From a virus: 64,000 bases of DNA. Position 1 is the stretch's first letter, and every line of letters starts with the position of its first letter. The DNA lies in IMG/VR virus record IMGVR_UViG_3300036944_001324, positions 1 to 64,000 of that record; one strand, 5' to 3'. The notes below the pieces were generated by a model. The model was not told the DNA's origin and did not search any database. It saw only the letters and a program-made list of their open reading frames with translations. The position numbers were made by a program, and so were the translations under genes. Of the stretch, positions 4,329 through 39,369 are shown in pieces.

Positions 4329-5960
4329 ATGAAACAATCTGTGCTCTCGTCTCTGGGTCTGACTCATGTAGTCACCGAGAGCGAACAAGTCTTGGCTGCG
4401 CCCGTCAGCCAGATCCCCACTCCTATCGAAGTGACACCTGAGATCATCGAAGAAGTCGCTAAGGTGGCTCACGAAGCCAACCGCGGCATCAGTGAAGGCA
4501 CGCCTTTGTCGTGGGATGACAGTACCGACGAGATTCGCCAAAGCGCCATCGATGGCGTGCAAGCGATCGTCAACGATCCGACCATGACGCCTGAGAAGTC
4601 GCACAACAACTGGATGCGCTGGAAGGAGTCGAATGGCTGGGTCTTTGGTGAAGTCAAAGACGAAGAAGCCAAGACCCATCCCTGCATGGTTCCATACAAC
4701 GAACTGCCTGAAGACGAACGCGTCAAAGACCAAGTGTTCGTGGACACCGTCAAATCGGAGCTGATGAAGTACAAAGCTTCCGATGTCAGCGAAAACGACA
4801 TTCCTTCCCCGATCAACGAACAAGCAGTTCCATCGGAGAGCGATATCGATGAAACCACGATGGCGCTGGAAACACTCCTGGCGGCAGCTGACTTGCTGGA
4901 AAATACGCCTGACGAAGGCATGAACTCCACCAATGCCGAACTGGTGGAGACGATGCTTGCTACTGCTGTTGGTCCTCTGCAAGCCAGCTATGCGGTGCCT
5001 TCAGCCGAGTCGTACAAACACGGCAAGGTAGCGTCGCTCAAGAGCTTCGCCAAAGAAGGCATCATGGAACGCGCCACCGCCATCGTTGCCAAGCTGATGG
5101 AAATGGTCAAACGCATCGTTGCGTTCGTTACCGTCTGGGTGAAAGCTGCATTCAACGAACTCGAACGCGCCAAGGCTTATCTGCTGTACGTGCGTCGTCA
5201 GATCCAGAAATACCGCAACACCAACAAAACTGGTCCGGTTCTGACTACTGAGCGGATGCGTGGCATGACAGCTCCTTCCAACCAATCTGTCAAGGTTGGA
5301 TCTGACTTGGCGAGCAACGCCATCACGATGCTCGGTGAGATGTCCACGCGTTTCGTTACGCTGTCTCGTTTCGCTGGCTCCATGTTCAAAGAAACCGCGG
5401 ACAGCGTTACGGGTGAGTTCAAAGGTTCACACCTGATCAACAACATCTACACCGCTTTGGACAGCCTGGGAGGAACCCTTCACCAGTCCGGTACCAAGGC
5501 TTTCATTCTCTCGTCGAGTGGCTTGGGATGGCGTGAAGGAGGGTTGGTTGCGCAAGGTCAATCCGTACCAGTTGACGTTACGGATATCTACTTCCTGTCA
5601 GGTCAGATCGCGGGTTACCAAGCGCAGACCGAAATCACTGGCCTGTCGTTCTCCGACGCTGACCGTTTCCTGTCACAGTTCGGTCAGATCGTGTCCGTGA
5701 TTGAAACCCACCTGCGAACCATCTCGCAGTATGCTGCTTCTCTGTCCAAGGTCCAGACCATCTTGGAATCCGTGCAGCGCGCCGGTAGCTCGGAGCAACA
5801 TGGCGCCGCTCGCAACAAAGCCAAGTTGCGTGAAATCCGCATGACACTCAAGATGGGTCGCGCTTTGGCCAAAGCTGCGATGCACGTCAAGAGTACGACG
5901 ACTGACGCCATGATTGGCGCGGTTTCTCTGGTCAATCAGTCATCCAAGAACTGGTCGTAA
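4329..5960 (+). CDS. Inner virion-type protein with RyR domain
   Basis: 543 residues. It shares architecture with four paralogs (6025, 34986, 36790, 38218): an acidic N-terminal region, an S/A-x-E site (PSAE, 225-227), a second A-K-E at 241-243, a helix rich in aromatic and hydrophobic residues (about 250-290), then a long mixed C-terminal domain. In phiKZ-type phages such acidic proteins are packaged in the head and cut by the prohead protease after S/A-x-E. Unique here is a RyR domain at about 61-147, recognisable from NNWMRWKESNGWVFGE, THPCMVPYNELPEDER and the final VKD. RyR modules are ligand-binding domains named after ryanodine receptors and occur in several phage proteins. Membership in the inner-protein family and the RyR call are pattern-based; the function of the RyR part is unknown. 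Confidence 0.8.
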   Translation: MKQSVLSSLGLTHVVTESEQVLAAPVSQIPTPIEVTPEIIEEVAKVAHEANRGISEGTPLSWDDSTDEIRQSAIDGVQAIVNDPTMTPEKSHNNWMRWKESNGWVFGEVKDEEAKTHPCMVPYNELPEDERVKDQVFVDTVKSELMKYKASDVSENDIPSPINEQAVPSESDIDETTMALETLLAAADLLENTPDEGMNSTNAELVETMLATAVGPLQASYAVPSAESYKHGKVASLKSFAKEGIMERATAIVAKLMEMVKRIVAFVTVWVKAAFNELERAKAYLLYVRRQIQKYRNTNKTGPVLTTERMRGMTAPSNQSVKVGSDLASNAITMLGEMSTRFVTLSRFAGSMFKETADSVTGEFKGSHLINNIYTALDSLGGTLHQSGTKAFILSSSGLGWREGGLVAQGQSVPVDVTDIYFLSGQIAGYQAQTEITGLSFSDADRFLSQFGQIVSVIETHLRTISQYAASLSKVQTILESVQRAGSSEQHGAARNKAKLREIRMTLKMGRALAKAAMHVKSTTTDAMIGAVSLVNQSSKNWS

Positions 5961-5971
5961 TTCTCTGAACC

Positions 5972-6010
5972 AATCCCGTTCTCACGAGCGGGGTTCCTCT
6001 TTTTCTTTTT
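5972..6010 (+). terminator. Intrinsic terminator after RyR virion gene
   Basis: The stem AATCCCG / CGGGGTT (5972-5995) is followed by CTCTTTTTCTTTTT, a classical Rho-independent arrangement. Unlike most terminators in this window it lacks the TTTATGCCGT decamer. Confidence 0.8.
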
Positions 6011-6024
6011 CGGATATTCTAATC

Positions 6025-7335
6025 ATGAGCATTTTTCGTAAACTGGGTCTGGAAAGCACAGTAATTCCTGAAGAAGGTTTGCCCGTTCAAACACCGACAC
6101 CTGAACAAACTCCGGAGCCAACTCAGGCACCTGCTCCCGCCCCAACAGTAACCGGCAATGTTGATGGTGGCGACAGCGGTGTCAACCTCGAGTCCGACGC
6201 TGAAAGCATGCAGCTCGAAGCTGAAGCCGAAACCATGGAAGGCGAAGGCAATGACATCGGTCTGGCAGGCGCTGACATCTCCAAAGCCCTGATCACGCTG
6301 GAGAACATCTCCACCATCTTGGCCAAAGCCCCGGATGAAGAGATCAACGAAACCACTGCAGCGATCGTTGACGCCGCCATCCAGGACATCAACAGCCGCT
6401 TCGACATCGAGAACGCCAAGGAAATCTCGATCGAGTTCTTCCAAGTGCAGGGCGCCAAACAGTACCGCCATAGCGCTAACGAGGCGATCAACGAACGCCT
6501 GGAACAACTCAAGAAAGCAGCCTACGCCGTGGTCGAGAAGATCATCGGTTGGATCAAGCAGTTCTGGAGCTGGCTGACCGCCACCCACAAGAGCACCAAG
6601 AAGAAGTTGGAAGCCGCCATCGCCGCTGCCAAGAACATCACTGTGGATGCCACCGTCACTTTGCCGAAGTACCAAGCAGACCGTCTGGCTTCTGGCGACC
6701 TGGTCGCTTCGACGGTGATCAACAACGGCCGCACGCTCGAAGCAGTGTGCCACAGCTCGACTTTGTTCATCAAGAACGCTTTCCCGAAAGTGATCGGCGC
6801 GCAAATCGCTTTTGTTCTGCGTGAAGAAGGTGTGCATCTGGCCAAGATGTGCTTTGGTAACTTCAAGTCGGCAGGTGACGCGTACGTTCTGTACAGCGGT
6901 ATCGCCGGCCGTCACGTGGAAGTGGACTTCAGTGGCGATGATCCACGCAGTGCCTTCAAGGTGAACGTCTCCAAGGTCTCTTCGGAACGCGGTAGCAACG
7001 AACTGACACTGAAGGAACATGACGTTGACGTGCTGTGTCAGCAGGCTACCCGCACGCTGCAAGCCAGCACGCTTGGCTACGACGAGTGCATGTCCATGAT
7101 TCGCAAGCTCGAAGCATGGCGTGGTTCGGTTGGCGCTGCTGTGGGTGGTCTCGTGTCTCAACGCATCGCTCTCTTGAATAACTACTCTGCAGCGGTGTCC
7201 ACCCTGAGCTCTGTAGGCTACACCGAAGCGCTGCGTTACGCCGATGCAGTGGTTGGCGTTTTGAACGCATACACGAAGGCAGCCAAGCCTGGTAACGATC
7301 TGACCCCCAACACCAACACCCCCCTTCTCAACTAA
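6025..7335 (+). CDS. Inner virion-type protein, paralog
   Basis: 436 residues from ATG 6025, chosen because the upstream in-frame part overlaps the preceding gene and its terminator. Residues ~15-80 are acidic and Pro/Glu/Thr-rich. Then come an S-I-E site at 135-137 (EISIEFF) and an A-N-E at 151-153, followed by an amphipathic helix with several tryptophans (IIGWIKQFWSWL, about 170-181), the layout of its paralogs at 4329, 34986, 36790 and 38218. By analogy with phiKZ-type inner-body proteins, the N-terminal acidic propeptide would be removed inside the prohead. The C-terminal 250 residues are not recognisable. The gene follows the RyR-containing paralog and precedes a punctuation hairpin, so the pair forms a small structural island away from the main virion block. 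Confidence 0.72.
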   Translation: MSIFRKLGLESTVIPEEGLPVQTPTPEQTPEPTQAPAPAPTVTGNVDGGDSGVNLESDAESMQLEAEAETMEGEGNDIGLAGADISKALITLENISTILAKAPDEEINETTAAIVDAAIQDINSRFDIENAKEISIEFFQVQGAKQYRHSANEAINERLEQLKKAAYAVVEKIIGWIKQFWSWLTATHKSTKKKLEAAIAAAKNITVDATVTLPKYQADRLASGDLVASTVINNGRTLEAVCHSSTLFIKNAFPKVIGAQIAFVLREEGVHLAKMCFGNFKSAGDAYVLYSGIAGRHVEVDFSGDDPRSAFKVNVSKVSSERGSNELTLKEHDVDVLCQQATRTLQASTLGYDECMSMIRKLEAWRGSVGAAVGGLVSQRIALLNNYSAAVSTLSSVGYTEALRYADAVVGVLNAYTKAAKPGNDLTPNTNTPLLN

Positions 7336-8845: not shown

Positions 8846-8920
8846 CGGGTTCACTAACCTCGAAGCCCGCGCGTTTATACGTCGGATCACCAACACGTGA
8901 AACTCAAACAACGCCCGATC

Positions 8921-9478
8921 ATGCGAAGACCTTTCGCCACAGAAAAGGTCTTCGCAGGTATTGGCAACAGAGATGCACCAGAATGGGCCTTGAAGCTGTG
9001 CTCTTTGATTTCTGACATCCTTGCCAGTAGTGGTTACATCCTACGCTCCGGCGGGGCACCCGGATGTGATCAAGCTTTTCAGTCTCGGGCAAGCATTCAT
9101 TCAGAGATCTACGTACCGTGGCACGGCTTTGAAGGCTTCCCTATGAGGTGGCCAATACCAGATATCGCCTACGAAGCTGCACTCTACTACAAACCGTCTA
9201 TACGCTACGCCAGTGACGGTGTGGCGTCCATGACTGCTAGAAACATGATGCAGATACTGGGTCCCGATCTCAAGACCAAAGCAGACTTCGTGGTCTGTTA
9301 CACCAAGAACGGCAGACAAGAAAACTACGACGGCTACAAAGACGTATGTGGGACTGACTCAGCCATCACTTGTGCTAGAGACAACGGAATCCCGGTCATC
9401 AACATCTGCAATCCTGGTTGGTCTGAATACCTCTCAGCGATTACAGGTTTGGACTTCTTACACTTGGAGAACGCATGA
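8921..9478 (+). CDS. SLOG-superfamily (DprA/LOG-like) nucleotide-binding protein
   Basis: 185 residues from ATG 8921; a GTG at 8897 would add 8 residues and cannot be excluded. The Rossmann-like start KVFAGIGNRDAP, the glycine-rich loop GYILRSGGAPGCDQAF and a later polar pocket segment match the SLOG superfamily, which includes DprA and LOG and binds nucleotides or nucleotide-derived ligands. The GxRD and SGGA/GxD blocks are the usual signature. Its stop overlaps the next start (ATGA), so the two are translationally coupled. Close to nucleotide-metabolism genes, so nucleotide binding or hydrolysis is plausible. Precise activity unknown. Confidence 0.68.
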   Translation: MRRPFATEKVFAGIGNRDAPEWALKLCSLISDILASSGYILRSGGAPGCDQAFQSRASIHSEIYVPWHGFEGFPMRWPIPDIAYEAALYYKPSIRYASDGVASMTARNMMQILGPDLKTKADFVVCYTKNGRQENYDGYKDVCGTDSAITCARDNGIPVINICNPGWSEYLSAITGLDFLHLENA

Positions 9479-14956: not shown

Positions 14957-15499
14957 ATGTTTGACCACTTGGTTTCACAACTCACCAAAGGCACTCCAAA
15001 AACATCCGAGGTCTGGTTGGAGTCTGCTCCTAACAAAAAATCTGCGACGGTAAGGAGCGTTGCAATCAAGATGCGTAACGTAGAGTCTGGAGAGATATTT
15101 CTTTTCCAGTCATTGGCAGCAGCCGGCCGATACTTTCGCATATCTGACCTGCGCATGATCAAGGGATTGGTTGATAACCCAGAACGGATGTGGCGCGGTC
15201 ATCAAGCTAAACCCTTGAAAGACAAGACTGATTGGGTGTCTCCTATCCAAAATAACGAATCCGTTTCCAAGGTCGTTAAAGGTGTCAATCACACTTACTA
15301 CCTCATCACTTGGAAGGATACCGGTGAGGAACAAGTTTGCATCGGATACGAGCAGGCTGCCTCCATTACTGGTGTAACCAGATCGTATCTCTCCAAGCTG
15401 GTGTGTTATGGTGACAAACCTAACAAACTCAACTTCAGTATCAGGAAAGCTTCGCAAGAAGATGTCCTCAGATACGAAAGCGGTCCAGTTACCGACTAA
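14957..15499 (+). CDS. Possible DNA-binding protein, homing-endonuclease-accessory-like
   Basis: 180 residues, 11 nt after the polymerase stop with an AAGGTG element upstream. It is a paralog of the gene at 15604: both open with MFD..L..QL, contain an MRN/RDxExGE-type beta-hairpin, a central W..QA+P segment, then a TGEE..(I/L)G segment followed by a helix-turn-helix-like stretch (AASITGVTRSYLSKLV). This layout recalls the NUMOD/IENR-type DNA-binding modules attached to homing endonucleases, but no HNH or GIY-YIG nuclease core is visible. Its position next to an apparently incomplete polymerase gene makes an intron or split-gene role worth testing. Confidence 0.6.
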   Translation: MFDHLVSQLTKGTPKTSEVWLESAPNKKSATVRSVAIKMRNVESGEIFLFQSLAAAGRYFRISDLRMIKGLVDNPERMWRGHQAKPLKDKTDWVSPIQNNESVSKVVKGVNHTYYLITWKDTGEEQVCIGYEQAASITGVTRSYLSKLVCYGDKPNKLNFSIRKASQEDVLRYESGPVTD

Positions 15500-15505
15500 G
15501 CAAAA

Positions 15506-15540
15506 AGAGAAAGTCTCATCAGCTTTCTCTTTTATGCCGT
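15506..15540 (+). terminator. Hairpin plus TTTATGCCGT
   Basis: The stem AGAGAAAG / CTTTCTCT (15506-15530) is followed directly by TTTATGCCGT. It separates the two paralogous ORFs, so the second probably has its own transcript start. Confidence 0.8.
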
Positions 15541-15603
15541 GCGTGTTTTTTCATTAGTTGATTACCCATCGTTTGAAGAGACTTTCACTTACTCATTTAA
15601 CAA

Positions 15604-16176
15604 ATGTTCGACATCCTTGCTCAACAATTGGTAGCCGGCCGTCCGTTCACTTCGTACATCTACAGCGAAGACTCCGATTACAAACCTGTCGCTCCTTCCA
15701 ACATCAAAAAGAACATACCGATCCAGATCCGTGATATGGAAACAGGGGTGGTGACCAATCACGACACTATCGTTTCGGCACTGGACGTCTATCCTGATCT
15801 TTACATCAAGGCACTTCACTCATTGCTGCGAGATCGCCGCAATACCTGGAAGAACCTGCAGGCCAGACCAGCTTCAGATACCAGTCACTGGCATGACCAT
15901 AAGGAAAAATACTTAGGCAAGTCTGCTAAACGTGCAAGACCGTACGTGATTTACGCGCAGCACAAGGGGACAGGAGAAGTCAAGCTCGGTCTGCGTCCCG
16001 AGATTGCCAGGCTCATGAAACTGAGCACGACAACTATTTTCCAGTTGTGCACAGAGCGTTCCCCAGGAAAAGACACTTACGTCTGGAGTGTTCGTTACGC
16101 AACGCAAGAGGATCTTGCCAAAGACACTACCTTCCGCTACATCCCGACGTGCATGAGTTTCTACGAACCGAGTTGA
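15604..16176 (+). CDS. Possible DNA-binding protein, paralog of 14957-15499
   Basis: 190 residues. It aligns along its length with the preceding ORF: MFDILAQQL start, IQIRDMETG, W+NLQARP, a TGEVKLGL hairpin, then an HTH-like RLMKLSTTTIFQLC and a shared ATQEDL near the C-terminus. Identity is low, so the duplication is old. No nuclease motif is seen. It is separated from its sister by a punctuation hairpin and ends at a symmetric convergent hairpin facing the portal gene. Confidence 0.6.
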   Translation: MFDILAQQLVAGRPFTSYIYSEDSDYKPVAPSNIKKNIPIQIRDMETGVVTNHDTIVSALDVYPDLYIKALHSLLRDRRNTWKNLQARPASDTSHWHDHKEKYLGKSAKRARPYVIYAQHKGTGEVKLGLRPEIARLMKLSTTTIFQLCTERSPGKDTYVWSVRYATQEDLAKDTTFRYIPTCMSFYEPS

Positions 16177-27916: not shown

Positions 27917-30868
27917 TCAGCTTTGAGCGTGGCGCAAGAAGTCCACAGTGATGTCCTCGCGCACGATGAGCTGACCGTTGGGCAGCGCGGCGAGTTTCTT
28001 ACGGATAGAGCAGCGTTCGCTGTCCTCCAACATGGTGATAGCTTCGAGGTTTCGAAGTCCACCAAGTCCAGACAAACTCACACTGATTACGTCACTGCCG
28101 TAGCGTTGACGCAATTCAGACGTAATGGCTGACATGGATACCGTCGAATTCTTGAAGTGTTTGTCAATCACTTCAATGGTTGTTGTAGTGAGAGCGTCAC
28201 GAAGGTCCGCGTTTTCAAACGTGGCATCTCCCACGTACAGACGCGCCGTCAATGCCTGTCCAGCCTGAACTTGGGCGATGTTACCGCCTTCGATCAGCGC
28301 ACGGATAGAACCCATGCTCACCTTCGGATGGAAATAGACCTTGGTCTGATCCAGGAGATCGCCATTCATCCGAGGAAGGTCACGTGTCACCCAACCAACC
28401 ACAGTTGCAACCATTTCGTTGCGATACAGGCTTGTCGAGTAGTCGTCTGCAAAGTAGTAAACCCCGTCGATGAAGAACATGTCAATCTGACGCGACAGGT
28501 AAGAGTGACCGATAGGTGTCGGAACGCCATTGGTCAAGATCACATCACCCCGGCGATGCAAGATGCGTGGCTGACCATTGCTGTCAAGTTTGACGTCACC
28601 TTGTTTACCGATCAGGTTGTACGAGATCGTTCCGTTGGCTTCGACCGTGAACGTAGCGCCCGTTACAGGGTCACGTTCGTACACGTCTGTTTCGTAGGTG
28701 TCGAAGATGTCCGTTGCATAGGTCTGGTGAGCTGCCGAGGACGGGATGGACCGCGACGAGGACCAAAGATTTTTCAGAGCCTTACCAAAAACGACAGAAA
28801 TGCGTTCTTGTGTCACACCAGCAATACGGTTCGGAAGCAAGAACCGTCCGAGCAAGGTATCCATGGAGTGGTTGGTCCAACCCATCGGCATCACTGAAGA
28901 GGCCGAATAGATCATGTCAAAGGACTGCGCAAGACCCACAGGGATGATACGCTCATCCAAGTTCAGAATCTTGAAACCAGTCAGTTGGAGATTGTCGTTG
29001 CTGTCAACGTCGAAACGCGTCTGAATGAAGAATTCAAAAATCATTTCGTTTTGGGCAGTCCGACCTACAAGCGTACCGTTAAGGTAACAGCGTACGCTTT
29101 CACCAACAGGTTGGTAGCTCAGTTGTAGATGGACCTGACTGTCATCGAGTTCGCGCCACGGGGCATTGCTCTGCGTCTTCACAACGATGCGGTATCCGCC
29201 GTCGATTCGTGTGATACCCATCTCAGCAGTGCTGACCTGCAGACCCGTGGTGTCGTTCTGGTCCACGAACATGGATGTCTCAGAAGTGGGACTGTCCAAG
29301 TAGTAAGGCCGCAGCGAGAACTCGTTGTTGGTAGCGTCCAGCACGTAGTGAAACGGCGTGTACAGGAAGTTGCGCGAAGAAACACTCAGCGAGCGACGCT
29401 CTGGCTCCAGCGCCATGATGTCGGCTTGCGCAGCCTCAGAGACGATCTTGACAATACCGTTAACGTTCTCGTAGAGGATCTCGGGAACGAGCGTCAAGCG
29501 ATCGCCGTTACCCAGCGTCTTGGAATGCTGCAGCGCTTCCTGGAACGAAACAATCAGCGATTCGATAGAAGCAGACCCAGCAGTCACCAACTTCTCATCG
29601 AATGGTTTCGGCATAGCCCGGGTAGCCAGGTACTCGCGTTCCGTCAAAGTATCAACGTACTTGACAACCTCGAAACCTTCACGGGTCAAAGACGCTTGGA
29701 TTTGTGGTCCGGTGATAGGGATCTGTCGCTGACCGACCGAGTTCATGATGACGCGTTCACGCAATTCTTCAAAACCCAAAGCTGCAGCACCACCGGAGAC
29801 GATCGTGTTGGTAAACACGTAGACAGACCGCATGGCTTGCCACGCGGCTACGTAGTTGGTCTTTTCCGACAGATCGATCGTGTTCCACTTCGCATCGAAA
29901 GCACTGGGCTTGAAGTTCGTGGTGTTGATACGAACCTCACCTTTGGTGGTGTAGATGTCGACCCGCAGAGAACCGGAGATGCTGCCTTGTGTCAGATACA
30001 CTTGAGGCACATGAACGCCAAGCGTTCCATCACCCACCTTCAGAACCGCGGTGCGCGTGTTCGGATCGTAGATCTGTTCCGTATGGGTTGTCTTGATTTC
30101 ACGCCACAGACCCAGCGTTGCATTGTTCTTGTAGAACACCCGAGCATAACAGAACTCGTCACTGAAGCCAAGTTGTTTGTTGTACCCGGTAGCCTGGTTG
30201 ATGTCAGAGTTGATCGAGGACACCCGCGTCTGGAGCATTTCCACGTCGATGCCAACCCAAGCACTTTTATCGCTCGACTGGACGAATGTCTTCCAGTTGG
30301 GTTCGTTGGTTCTGAAGACCTGCAAAGGGGTCACGTTGTCGAGGTCGTAAACGACGCTCAAGGCACCGTGCTGCATTTCCTTGATCTCAATCGGATACAT
30401 CAAGGTAAAGATCGTGTCAGCGACTTCAACGGTACTGTAGCGCGGAATCACCACCTTGCGAATGTTCGTGGCGGGGTCCAAGATCATCCGAGACAACAGC
30501 TCTTCTTTGTTGATCATGAACCGGAACGATGCGTTCGCAGGGATTGCGAAACGATCGATGTAGTCCTTGTCACTCATGTGCAGGTACAAGTCATCGATCG
30601 TCTGGGCTGCAGCGGGATACAGACGACGTGTCGTCGTTTCGTTGTCGATCACGAAAGCCGCGGTGTTCACAGCCGAAGCTTCCATGAGGTTAACAAACGG
30701 GTTGGTGGCATCTACCAATTCAATACCACCGCCCAGAACGTCTTGGACTTGCTCGATCATCAACCGCTGGATGGCAGTCGGGTTAAAACGCACACGGTCC
30801 ACGTTTTTCAAAAAGCGCGATACAGGTGTATCGACAGCGTCACGTGCGGTGCTGTACAGTTCAGTCAT
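27917..30868 (-). CDS. Very large structural protein, baseplate-like
   Basis: 983 residues from ATG 30868 (MTELYSTARD...); an upstream in-frame ATG would add 11 hydrophobic residues. Mixed alpha/beta, long and without low complexity. A middle segment (VGQRQIPITGPQIQASLTREGFEVVKYVDTL, about 410-440) looks like the domain boundary seen in baseplate wedge proteins of the gp6/J type, by impression only. It probably shares a transcript with the 380-residue gene upstream (39-nt gap). A virion role is likely from length and neighbours; the baseplate assignment is tentative. Confidence 0.55.
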   Translation of the reverse strand: MTELYSTARDAVDTPVSRFLKNVDRVRFNPTAIQRLMIEQVQDVLGGGIELVDATNPFVNLMEASAVNTAAFVIDNETTTRRLYPAAAQTIDDLYLHMSDKDYIDRFAIPANASFRFMINKEELLSRMILDPATNIRKVVIPRYSTVEVADTIFTLMYPIEIKEMQHGALSVVYDLDNVTPLQVFRTNEPNWKTFVQSSDKSAWVGIDVEMLQTRVSSINSDINQATGYNKQLGFSDEFCYARVFYKNNATLGLWREIKTTHTEQIYDPNTRTAVLKVGDGTLGVHVPQVYLTQGSISGSLRVDIYTTKGEVRINTTNFKPSAFDAKWNTIDLSEKTNYVAAWQAMRSVYVFTNTIVSGGAAALGFEELRERVIMNSVGQRQIPITGPQIQASLTREGFEVVKYVDTLTEREYLATRAMPKPFDEKLVTAGSASIESLIVSFQEALQHSKTLGNGDRLTLVPEILYENVNGIVKIVSEAAQADIMALEPERRSLSVSSRNFLYTPFHYVLDATNNEFSLRPYYLDSPTSETSMFVDQNDTTGLQVSTAEMGITRIDGGYRIVVKTQSNAPWRELDDSQVHLQLSYQPVGESVRCYLNGTLVGRTAQNEMIFEFFIQTRFDVDSNDNLQLTGFKILNLDERIIPVGLAQSFDMIYSASSVMPMGWTNHSMDTLLGRFLLPNRIAGVTQERISVVFGKALKNLWSSSRSIPSSAAHQTYATDIFDTYETDVYERDPVTGATFTVEANGTISYNLIGKQGDVKLDSNGQPRILHRRGDVILTNGVPTPIGHSYLSRQIDMFFIDGVYYFADDYSTSLYRNEMVATVVGWVTRDLPRMNGDLLDQTKVYFHPKVSMGSIRALIEGGNIAQVQAGQALTARLYVGDATFENADLRDALTTTTIEVIDKHFKNSTVSMSAITSELRQRYGSDVISVSLSGLGGLRNLEAITMLEDSERCSIRKKLAALPNGQLIVREDITVDFLRHAQS

Positions 30869-30907
30869 GTCTAAAACCAGTTGAATAAAATGAAAACCCA
30901 ATGAGTA

Positions 30908-34985: not shown

Positions 34986-36701
34986 ATGAATCCATTGCTC
35001 AAACAAATCCTGGCTGGCGTTATGGTGCCCGCCAAGGAGAACTTGATCGATCAAGCCGCCCAAGCCAACCAGACAGCGGGCACTACCGATCCTGAACAAG
35101 TTCAAAAGAACGTCGACTTCCAAGCGGAAATCGATCGTCTCAAAGAACTCCAAGGCGACAATAGCGACGGCGGTACATCCACCGATCCTGTTGAAGGAAA
35201 CCCTGACGACGCAGCTGGCGGTGACGACGGTTCTCAACCGAGTCCTGACACTACCGGCGGCGGCGCTGGTGGTACTGACGGTGGTACCGAAGGCGGCGAA
35301 GGCGGTGACAACGGCGACCCCGACAACACCGACCCCGAACAAGATCCAGAACAAGAGCCCGAAGAAGATCCCGGCAACGGCGATGTTCCCGAAGAAGCAG
35401 AAGCTTCGGCCGACGGTGAAGAAGGCGATCAAGAGCCTGATGAAGACACCGAACCTCCAACGGAAGACGCAGAGATCGCTCAAGAAGCTCTGCGTGTGGC
35501 GGTTGAAGCACTGGAGGCTATTGGCCGTGCTCACGAGATGGGTGTTGTGAAACCCCAGCACATCGCGCTGTTCGATCTGGCGATTGAATCGCAATACCTG
35601 AACATCGGCATCACTGCCCGTCCTGGTGTCAGTCTCGAGTCCGTCTTGCCTGAAGGCAGCGCTGGCAAGGTCAAGTACGCCGCCGGCAAGGTGGCTGAAT
35701 TCCTGCGCCAGATCCTGGCCAAGATGAAAGAATACTACACCAAGGTCCTGCGTTGGATTCGTGACTTCTTCCAAGGCTATCGCGAAGCCAATGGCGTGTT
35801 CGCCAAGAACACCGAAGGCCTGCTCAAGCGTATCCAATACCTCAAGGGTAAAGAACGTGATCAAGCTGAGATCGACCAACTGGCTGAAAAGAAAGCCATC
35901 TCTGGCCGGCGCCTGTCTACCGACGGCAGTGTTCCTACGCTAGATTCCATCGCCAGTGGCATTGCAGCGATGCAGTCCATCGGCAAGGGTATCCGCTACT
36001 CGATCACGGAAGAAGAAGCCTACGGTCCTTTGGTGGACTTGGTGTCTGACTTCGACGTGGATGACATGGAAGGCAAACTCGCCAGTACGTCCAACGGCAT
36101 TCGTCCTGAAACCATGTTCCGCATCGCGGGAACAAGCTCCGTGTTTGAAAACTCGGACCTGTACCGCAGCTCTAGCATCAAGGAATCGAGCTTCACCAAC
36201 ATGGTGGATTTCAGCATTCGCAATCTGTTTGGTCTGTCCAGCTATGTGTGGACTTTGGCCGGTCGTGATGTGAGAAACATCGATTCTGTCGTTCACTTCA
36301 ACCACGGTTACAAGTTCGGCATCCATACCGAGCGTCGTGACGTGATGGTTCCTCTTCTCACCAACCTTGCAGACTGCGAGAAAGCCATGCAGATGGTGGC
36401 TCCTTTGCTCAAGGAACTGCAAGCCATGGGTGAGATGACCAAGGTGATGGAAGCTGTTGAAGCCACCATCATCAAGAACCAGTCCGTGATGAAGAACCTG
36501 GTGGACACCCTTGATATGGAAGAAACCTCTAAGATGAAAGTCTTGATGGCTTACTCGACCGGACAGTCGGCTTACACCAACTTGTTCGTCAAGAGCGTGA
36601 CGCTTCACATGCAAAACCTCGATGCGGTGGTCAAGGCGATTCACACCTGGGTTGCCCAGAGCCTGAACATCATTGCACCTGAAAAGGCCCCAGCGGCCTA
36701 A
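34986..36701 (+). CDS. Inner virion-type protein with long acidic repeat region
   Basis: 571 residues. Residues ~55-165 are extremely acidic and Gly/Asp/Glu/Pro-rich (runs of GGD, DPEQ, EPEEDP). An S-L-E site at 216-218 (VSLESV) lies at the homologous place to the cleavage-like sites of the paralogs, followed by a Lys-rich amphipathic helix (FLRQILAKMKEYYTKVLRWIRDFF, about 237-260). The C-terminal ~300 residues form a mixed domain. In phiKZ-type phages comparable proteins are internal head proteins cut by the prohead protease after S/A-x-E. The acidic region resembles a DNA-mimicking or scaffold-like propeptide. ATG 34986 lies 35 nt after the upstream stop. Confidence 0.74.
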   Translation: MNPLLKQILAGVMVPAKENLIDQAAQANQTAGTTDPEQVQKNVDFQAEIDRLKELQGDNSDGGTSTDPVEGNPDDAAGGDDGSQPSPDTTGGGAGGTDGGTEGGEGGDNGDPDNTDPEQDPEQEPEEDPGNGDVPEEAEASADGEEGDQEPDEDTEPPTEDAEIAQEALRVAVEALEAIGRAHEMGVVKPQHIALFDLAIESQYLNIGITARPGVSLESVLPEGSAGKVKYAAGKVAEFLRQILAKMKEYYTKVLRWIRDFFQGYREANGVFAKNTEGLLKRIQYLKGKERDQAEIDQLAEKKAISGRRLSTDGSVPTLDSIASGIAAMQSIGKGIRYSITEEEAYGPLVDLVSDFDVDDMEGKLASTSNGIRPETMFRIAGTSSVFENSDLYRSSSIKESSFTNMVDFSIRNLFGLSSYVWTLAGRDVRNIDSVVHFNHGYKFGIHTERRDVMVPLLTNLADCEKAMQMVAPLLKELQAMGEMTKVMEAVEATIIKNQSVMKNLVDTLDMEETSKMKVLMAYSTGQSAYTNLFVKSVTLHMQNLDAVVKAIHTWVAQSLNIIAPEKAPAA

Positions 36702-36789: not shown

Positions 36790-38046
36790 ATGAACGCTTC
36801 TTTTACCCGGCAACTGCGTGGTGGCCAAGGCGCATTCTCCCGCGAGAACCTGGAAAACGCCGATCTGCCACAACTGCCACCTGAACAAGTCGAACCGGCC
36901 CTGGCCGAAACCGACACCGTGGTCGCTGAAGTCGAGACCGAAGTGCCTACCGCTGTCGCGGAACTGGACGAAGGCACCGACGCCATCGCCGAAGCCGAAG
37001 GCGATGCCAACACCCTGGAAAACACCGCCCAGATCCTGGAAGACGCGATCGCTGCCGAGCCCGTGAATGACCCGGCCAATCCCGAAGCCGAACCCATTCC
37101 TGGCGAAGTGCCTACCGACGTGGAACCCGCCGGTGCTGAAATTGCCGACCTGGCTATCGAAGCCATCTCCAGCAAGTACGCCATGGCTCGCCCTGCCCGC
37201 ATCAGCGCTGAAAGCTTCGCTTCCGGCGCCGCTCGCGTGGCTACCTACCGCGCCCTGTCGACCGAAGCCTTCGAGAAGGCTGGTGAACTGCGCGCCCGTG
37301 CCGTTGAAGGCATCAAGAAGCTGATCGCCTGGTTCAAGGATTTCCTGAAGTCCGTGTTCGACAAGCGCACCAAGCTGGAAAAGCGCATCGCTGCTCTGAC
37401 CGCCTCGGCCAACTCGCTGACCGGCGAAGTCGCTGCTGACGCCAAGATCAAGGTCGGTGGCTGGGGCGCCGTCGTGGGTGAGGCCGTTGCTACCGATCCC
37501 GCTCCTGCTCTGAAGGAACTGGTGAACTTCGTCAACGAATTCGGCCAGATCGCCAAGATCGGTGGCAAGTCCATCGCCGAAACCGGCGACGTGGCTGAAG
37601 TGGACCTGAACCCCAAGAAGCTGGCCGGCCTGACCCTGAAGTTCTCCGCCACTGGTGGCAAGTACTCGGTGACCAAGGAACAATCGGGCAAGCCCGAAGC
37701 CGTGGAAATGGCACCTCTGAACGACGCCGCCATCAAGGCCGTGCTGCGCGACGCGCACAAGGCTCTGAAGTCGCTGACGCTGGCCGAAGCCAACTTCAAC
37801 GTCTTGATCAAAGACATGGAAGGCGCCTACGGCACCCTGAAGTCGGCCGTGACTGGCAAGGAAGGCGGCGAGAAGGTTGACCGCTCTGCTGTGATCGCTC
37901 GTTACCAAGCTTTCAGCAAGCTGTCGGGTTCCGTGTCAGCTGTGGCTCTGGCTGTGATCGGCAACGCTGTCTCGATGGTCGAGAAGTCGATGGCTGCCCA
38001 CAAGGCACCCGCCGCCGCTGCTGCTCCTGCACCCGCTGCCGCCTAA
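36790..38046 (+). CDS. Inner virion-type protein, probably very abundant
   Basis: 418 residues. The N-terminus MNASFTRQLRGGQGAFSREN matches that of the next paralog (QLR then SREN), which may be a packaging tag. Residues 30-125 are acidic. S-A-E at 139-141 (ISAESF) and S-T-E at 157-159 are cleavage-like sites, followed by FEKAGELRARAVEGIKK and the helix LIAWFKDFLKSVF. The C-terminus is an Ala/Pro-rich tail. Codon use is unusually extreme (Leu almost always CTG, Ala GCC, Lys AAG), stronger than in neighbouring genes and its paralog, suggesting very high expression. Family by shared architecture with 4329, 6025, 34986 and 38218. Confidence 0.76.
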   Translation: MNASFTRQLRGGQGAFSRENLENADLPQLPPEQVEPALAETDTVVAEVETEVPTAVAELDEGTDAIAEAEGDANTLENTAQILEDAIAAEPVNDPANPEAEPIPGEVPTDVEPAGAEIADLAIEAISSKYAMARPARISAESFASGAARVATYRALSTEAFEKAGELRARAVEGIKKLIAWFKDFLKSVFDKRTKLEKRIAALTASANSLTGEVAADAKIKVGGWGAVVGEAVATDPAPALKELVNFVNEFGQIAKIGGKSIAETGDVAEVDLNPKKLAGLTLKFSATGGKYSVTKEQSGKPEAVEMAPLNDAAIKAVLRDAHKALKSLTLAEANFNVLIKDMEGAYGTLKSAVTGKEGGEKVDRSAVIARYQAFSKLSGSVSAVALAVIGNAVSMVEKSMAAHKAPAAAAAPAPAAA

Positions 38047-38217: not shown

Positions 38218-39369
38218 ATGACTTCTTACACCAAACAACTGCGTACCAGCAAGGGCGTGATTGCCGCTCTCTCGCGCGAAAACATCGATCAAGCTCCAGC
38301 ACCAGTGGCTGATGAGATGACACCCGAAGCAGCGACTGCCGTTCTGGCTGAGCCCGTTGCCCAAGAAATCGAACAAGACGTTCTCGCCCCCGCTGAACAA
38401 ATCGAGCAAGGCACTGACGCTCTGATGGAAGCAGAAGCCGACGCCGGCCTGCTGGAAAACACCGCCCAGATCCTGGAAGACGCATCCGGTGAAACTGCGG
38501 CCGACGTCGATGTGGCGACACCCGAGCTGGCCAACATTACCGTGGAGCGCATCTCTGCCAAGTACGGCATGGCCCGCACTGCCGTCCTGTCCAAGGAAAG
38601 CCTGGGCGCTGCTGCTGGTCGCGTTGAATCCACCCGCTTCATCTCCAAGGAAGCTTTCGAGAAAGCTGGTGAACTGCGCAAGCGTGTGAGCGAAGGCGTG
38701 GCCAAACTGATCGAGTGGTTCAAGAACCTGATCAAGAACATTTTCGACAAGCGCACCAAACTGGAAAATCGTCTGAACGCAGTGTTGGCCATGACAAAGA
38801 CCAAAGAGGGCGTTAAAGCCAGCGAAGACGCCACGATCAACGTCACCAGGGACATTGCCGAACTCAATGTTTCTGATGTCAGCGCTTTGATCTATAAATT
38901 CAAAAAGGTCGAAGAACTGGCCAAGGAAAACGCAGCTTCCATGCAAGGCATGGAAAACGAAACCCTTGACTTCAATCCCAAGAAACTCGGCGGTGTCACG
39001 TTGATCTGCGACATCGTTGACGGCAAAGTCTCGGTTACCAAGCAGACGGAAAAAGGACAGGAGACGTTGAAGAAAGCCGTTCCTACCCTGACTGACGTGA
39101 CCGAAGCTGCCAAGATGGGCCTGACCATCCTGAAAGATCTGAAAACAGCCGAAGCATCGTGTGAAAAGATCGTTGCCGAAATGGGTAGCGCTACACAAAA
39201 ACTCAAAGCCCTGGTCACCGGTGAAGACAATGGTGCTGGGGCAACACGTGGTAACATTCTGGCACGTTACCAAGGTGTCACCACTCTGGCAGGCGCGTTG
39301 AGCGCCGTCACACTGAAAGTGGTCGCTGACCTCAGCACTATGTGCGAGCAAAGTTTGGCTGCTTACTAA
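38218..39369 (+). CDS. Inner virion-type protein, close paralog of 36790-38046
   Basis: 383 residues, clearly a duplicate of the preceding gene: MTSYTKQLR start, SREN at 19-22, an acidic region with LENTAQILEDA, S-K-E at 125-127 (LSKESL), S-K-E at 143-145 (ISKEAF), then the conserved FEKAGELRKRV and LIEWFKNLIKNIF helix and FDKRTKLENR. The acidic propeptide is shorter and the codon bias weaker than in its sister. Both cleavage-like sites are retained. Expected location: inside the capsid, processed during maturation. Confidence 0.76.
   Translation: MTSYTKQLRTSKGVIAALSRENIDQAPAPVADEMTPEAATAVLAEPVAQEIEQDVLAPAEQIEQGTDALMEAEADAGLLENTAQILEDASGETAADVDVATPELANITVERISAKYGMARTAVLSKESLGAAAGRVESTRFISKEAFEKAGELRKRVSEGVAKLIEWFKNLIKNIFDKRTKLENRLNAVLAMTKTKEGVKASEDATINVTRDIAELNVSDVSALIYKFKKVEELAKENAASMQGMENETLDFNPKKLGGVTLICDIVDGKVSVTKQTEKGQETLKKAVPTLTDVTEAAKMGLTILKDLKTAEASCEKIVAEMGSATQKLKALVTGEDNGAGATRGNILARYQGVTTLAGALSAVTLKVVADLSTMCEQSLAAY

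Follow-up and report, generated by a model that had tools for sequence, protein, structure and literature searches.

In other phages, proteins of the RyR family capture or destroy a bacterial alarm molecule, and phage proteins that act against nucleotide immune signals are usually regarded as products made after infection. The gene at 4329..5960 (+) of the window, the whole 64,000-nt stretch of viral DNA analysed here, raised the question of why an RyR domain would reside in a protein of the phage head. RyR evasion domains are themselves known; what is new is the siting of such a domain in the propeptide of a head protein.

An RyR domain in a phiKZ-type internal head protein

The open reading frame encodes a product of 543 aa, and a Pfam profile search of this product returned two matches on the single uninterrupted frame. 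The RyR family (PF02026) matched residues 88-135 (E=2e-11, 44.4 bits) and the phiKZ_IP family (PF12699) matched residues 174-355 (E=7.6e-9, 35.7 bits), above the curated cut-offs of 27.4 and 27 bits, respectively. The original prediction had described an RyR module in a putative head protein; both parts were borne out, and the head protein could be assigned to the phiKZ-type internal head proteins. Apart from this 543-aa precursor, nothing in the 271,654-bp record matched PF02026. The phiKZ_IP profile matched five genes of the record, every one inside the window. Besides the RyR-bearing gene, these were a tandem paralogue of 436 aa that lacks RyR, at 6025..7335 (+) (phiKZ_IP E=3.2e-10; phrog_6807 internal head protein E=2e-12), and three further paralogues at 34986..36701, 36790..38046 and 38218..39369 (all +).

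A conserved protein encoded nearby, at 27917-30901, had its nearest named relatives in Burkholderia phage FLC9, Xanthomonas phage LucasX and Pseudomonas phage Noxifer; the alignments covered at least 96% of the protein and showed 34-40% identity. A prohead protease homologue of the phiKZ gp175 type was found at G000:126345-127067 (40% identity), and a major capsid homologue lay elsewhere in the same record. Together, these relationships placed the virus among the giant phages of the phiKZ group. Near the internal head protein genes, a 193-aa protein (8897-9478) gave a weak, sub-threshold DprA-like match (DNA_processg_A). Two adjacent look-alike ORFs of 180 and 190 aa (14957-16176), right behind a DNA polymerase gene, had no Pfam match.

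An AlphaFold2 model of residues 1-245, built with a 75-sequence alignment, showed a well-defined RyR domain at residues 36-152 (4434..4784, +), with pLDDT around 97 and helices at 37-54, 67-82, 88-101 and 128-151. Outside the domain, residues 1-35 were disordered with low pLDDT, and the linker at about 155-170 was weak. Foldseek gave a probability of 1.00 to the BtRyR and BtRyR/human chimera structures, and VIA-align gave a Z of 9.8 across 121 residues with an rmsd of 3.2; in both searches, the top solved structures were BtRyR and the Repeat12 domains of animal RyR. A sequence-only search of the PDB matched the domain to the same BtRyR and RyR Repeat12 families, at 1e-24 and weaker. The model and the structure searches thus recovered the four-helix RyR fold of PF02026. 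A profile search and a structure prediction were among the checks originally proposed for the module, and neither refuted it. The span first given for it, 4509-4769 (residues 61-147), was correct as far as it went but omitted the first helix.

RyDEP, reported in a 2026 preprint, is a phage glycosidase built on an RyR domain; it opens 2'cADPR and 3'cADPR, defeats Thoeris and requires H75, W78, H100 and D117 for its activity (PMC13232231). As the reference for alignment, we used Mycobacterium phage DyoEdafos gp78, which matches PDB chain 35tm_A along all 138 residues. All four ligand and catalytic residues were present in the window domain, each offset by 17 and with identical spacing. H92 (4602..4604, +), the counterpart of catalytic H75, was His in all 75 viral RyR domains. 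W95 (4611..4613, +), corresponding to W78, which stacks on the adenine, and H117 (4677..4679, +), corresponding to H100, which contacts the phosphate, were likewise invariant. D134 (4728..4730, +), the counterpart of catalytic D117, was Asp in 73 of 75. The domain that keeps these residues has 40-50% identity to other RyR domains and is somewhat more divergent than most viral ones. Of the 31 positions that at least 90% of the 75 domains conserve, it retains 27, a count near the bottom of the range. In the alignment, the helix 1-2 loop, which contributes to the ligand cavity in RyDEP, was shorter by about four residues.

Six of eight RyDEP homologues tested bind the 2'/3'cADPR signals and two do not; homologues that lack hydrolytic activity are said to be highly conserved relative to RyDEP, and two sponge-type homologues tested also counter Thoeris (PMC13232231). 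The window domain shares with RyDEP and the sponge homologues the PF02026 family, the same four helices and the spacing of the ligand and catalytic residues. We considered these conserved residues as a discriminator between sponge and glycosidase and dropped them, because sponge candidates from Ruegeria and Pectobacterium phages retained the same four residues in the alignment. H92, W95, H117 and D134 therefore cannot separate the two activities. Judged by this homology, the ligand can probably be narrowed from nucleotides in general to the 2'/3'cADPR signals of Thoeris defence (PMC13232231). RyDEP itself is a free 138-aa early-to-mid protein in a NARP1 operon, whereas the window domain lies inside the propeptide of a head protein. 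A NAPRTase-type or NARP1-like partner gene had no match in the record. A Tad2 partner was also rejected, as the only match was sub-threshold and lay inside the ribonucleotide reductase gene.

The predicted cleavage site and the probable origin of the insertion

The phiKZ protease recognizes S/A/G-x-E, with LSxE preferred (PMC10449902), and the cleavage motif in SPN3US is A-x-E (PMC10052503). We aligned 37 internal head proteins from this phage, its IMG/VR relatives, FLC9, PCH45 and phiKZ. The SAE at residues 225-227 (5001..5009, +) fell in the column where [SAG]xE was best conserved, in 88% of filled rows, while the next column reached 73%. A maturation site had been proposed at this motif, and its conservation agrees with that proposal. 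With its profile match above cut-off, its S/A/G-x-E at the family position, its paralogous set and its long propeptide, the protein resembles the phiKZ internal head proteins of PF12699. Since the conserved SAE lies downstream of RyR, the domain is placed within the propeptide, about 227 aa long, of which RyR takes up about 117. The predicted mature internal head protein of about 316 aa (5010..5957, +) is supported by the phiKZ_IP match at 174-355 and by homology to the paralogues. The major capsid homologue, looked at as a comparison, lacked an obvious S/A-x-E where its N-terminus was expected.

A motif scan revealed two further candidate sites, ALE 179-181 (4863..4871, +), a possible protease site past RyR, and AKE 241-243 (5049..5057, +), a second [SAG]xE about 16 residues after the SAE. 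Many internal head proteins in the 37-protein alignment had such a second motif about 10-16 residues past the first, ahead of an amphipathic helix, and double cleavage may be the rule among them. Residues 50-178 contained no [SAG]xE, compared with 2.7 expected from shuffling (P=0.04), a weak depletion. The sole upstream motif, AHE49, was located within the first RyR helix of the AlphaFold2 model. FLC9 gp334 (L132:1417-3702) represents the opposite extreme to the window protein, being a 762-aa internal head protein with 29 [SAG]xE in a propeptide of about 430 aa.

The sequences on both sides of RyR resembled the paralogue at 6025. The disordered N-terminus, residues 1-35 (4329..4433, +), may be a head-targeting end; residues 4-38 aligned with residues 2-31 of the paralogue with a local score of 43, against a shuffled mean of 24.8 (P=0.003). 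Past residue 150, local alignment matched the protein to the propeptide and amphipathic region of the same paralogue (P=0.0005). Matches on both flanks imply an insertion into a head protein and not a chance junction. Most simply, one copy of a duplicated internal head protein would have gained RyR, in frame, within its propeptide. The GC and GC3 of the RyR segment matched those of the gene and were genome-like. When the mature head part served as a tblastn query against 50,697 phage records, no relatives were recovered at an E of up to 10, and the paralogues at 36790 and 6025 likewise recovered none; members of the internal head protein family have diverged too far to be found from a single query. 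Inspection by eye of the regions upstream of these genes revealed no common promoter.

Rarity of the fusion

By Pfam search, RyR was present in one of the 37 internal head proteins. None of the other 36 contained RyR or any further curated Pfam domain at convincing significance, and 12 relatives carried internal head proteins without RyR. Of the RyR ORFs compared, 103 came from IMG/VR and 16 belonged to named phages, and none was fused to phiKZ_IP. A single ORF of that set exceeded 304 aa, and it was an artefact. The 694-aa RyR ORF of L171, tried as a second fusion, proved to be an out-of-frame overlap with the portal gene, the true RyR gene being about 117 aa. RyR proteins of 308 and 452 aa are listed in BFVD for RP12 and RSL1, both outside the fusion count. 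No second copy of the RyR-phiKZ_IP fusion was found, and the 35-mer at the junction was seen in this metagenomic record alone. The phiKZ-like phages PCH45, YC1, BUCTxx100 and Ea277G belong to the same phage group and have both internal head proteins and an RyR domain, but there RyR is a free protein of about 116-143 aa whose gene lies well away from those for the internal head proteins. A literature search for internal head proteins together with Thoeris returned nothing.

Possible roles of the RyR domain

We favour, with a probability of roughly 40%, a phiKZ-type internal head protein precursor whose propeptide carries a RyDEP-like RyR domain that is freed by cleavage, acts on cADPR signals, stays at least partly in the head and is ejected. 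The propeptide would carry the precursor into the prohead, in keeping with the targeting and core formation for which giant-phage propeptides are thought to serve (PMC10052503). The protease would then cut at SAE227, and perhaps also at ALE181, to free a folded RyR fragment of about 20-25 kDa, which would bind or hydrolyse 2'/3'cADPR. Some of this fragment would remain in the head and be ejected with the DNA, providing counter-defence from the first moment of infection. A folded RyR would offer the protease no accessible internal cleavage motif, so it should be harder to mince than ordinary propeptides. If it were released as a folded block, at least part of it could plausibly be retained and ejected. 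The long propeptides of SPN3US are cut away at several sites; most of the fragments exit, but some remain in heads (PMC10052503). Ejection of internal head proteins also has precedent, as C-terminally tagged gp93, gp94, gp95 and gp163 of phiKZ are injected (PMC10449902).

Related arrangements are known. Packaged NAD/ADP-ribose domains on head proteins have been proposed as a general strategy of contractile-tailed phages (PMC9503650), and the window protein, like those domains fused to MuF, portal or capsid peptidase, puts an NAD-signal domain on a head protein. RyR is unmentioned among those fusions, and the window RyR differs in occupying a propeptide predicted to be cut off. A further parallel is offered by T4 Alt and the T4 internal proteins with a capsid targeting sequence, whose N-terminal leader takes them into the prohead and is cleaved off by the prohead protease. 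The T4 cargo is what remains as the mature protein, whereas the RyR domain lies on the side that the cut would remove.

The fullest form of the favoured reading, in which the particle carries an anti-Thoeris cADPR sponge or glycosidase that is freed in the prohead, ejected with the genome and able to capture the signal before phage gene expression, is put forward tentatively. Several observations count against the best explanation: the fusion is single, the helix 1-2 loop is shortened, four of the 31 conserved positions are changed, and two of the eight RyDEP homologues are non-binding. The original interpretation, in which the domain is removed or released on maturation or delivered into the host if retained, was partly supported. 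The arrangement suggests that this phage may carry a counter-defence protein as a component of its particle rather than make it only post-infection. If so, a particle-loaded copy would give a giant phage a means to blunt Thoeris from the outset, and head-protein propeptides, usually seen as discarded targeting tags, could bear functional cargo.

The domain might instead work as a cytoplasmic sponge or glycosidase while the precursor accumulates before packaging, the propeptide later being cut and discarded, so that an abundant sponge comes at little extra cost. Head proteins are expected to be late products, and Thoeris signalling may have started by the time they appear. In addition, the four phiKZ-like phages with a free RyR gene manage cytoplasmic expression with it, so a fusion would require some other benefit. 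In favour of this role are the abundance of internal head proteins (phiKZ inner body proteins reach 100-200 copies per virion; PMC13282480) and the action of free RyR proteins of other phages inside the infected cell (PMC13232231). Propeptides are also generally expected to exit the head (PMC10052503), which counts against retention, and use in the producing cell followed by discard is nearly as good a reading as retention and ejection.

A structural role in assembly is possible but less probable than either of these. The domain would dimerise in the prohead core, as RyDEP homodimerises through helices 1 and 4 (PMC13232231), and aid packing, with ligand binding incidental or directed at a common nucleotide such as ATP. 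Structure entries of animal RyR Repeat12 with ATP analogues fit such a ligand, and the presumed core-forming function of giant-phage propeptides (PMC10052503) fits such a place. Against this, 36 other internal head proteins, four of them paralogues from the same genome, manage without RyR, and the intact ligand residues would be unneeded in a purely structural part.

Drift and artefact are both unlikely. A recent insertion without selected function would agree with a fusion that occurs once and is shared by no near relative, yet it is improbable given the open frame, the genome-like composition and the four pocket residues kept at such divergence. An assembly artefact fusing two genes, although the record is metagenomic and its junction 35-mer occurs nowhere else, is the least probable of all, as the frame is unbroken, the composition is uniform, and the paralogue-like sequence on both sides would require an insertion and not a simple end-to-end join.

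RyR genes were also observed among virion genes in several unrelated phages (L018:2486-3358; L171 at about 5989-6342; L021:2372-2833). In F116-like phages, the gene lies between capsid-type and tail genes; in L171, between the portal gene and a scaffold-like gene; and in phi40:1, it is flanked by two structural genes verified by mass spectrometry. There may be a wider association of RyR proteins with virions. In Acidovorax phage ACP17 (L019:2071-2839), there is overlap between the RyR gene and one annotated DUF2493, a SLOG-type nucleotide-binding family, and the pair is possibly a nucleotide-signal cassette.
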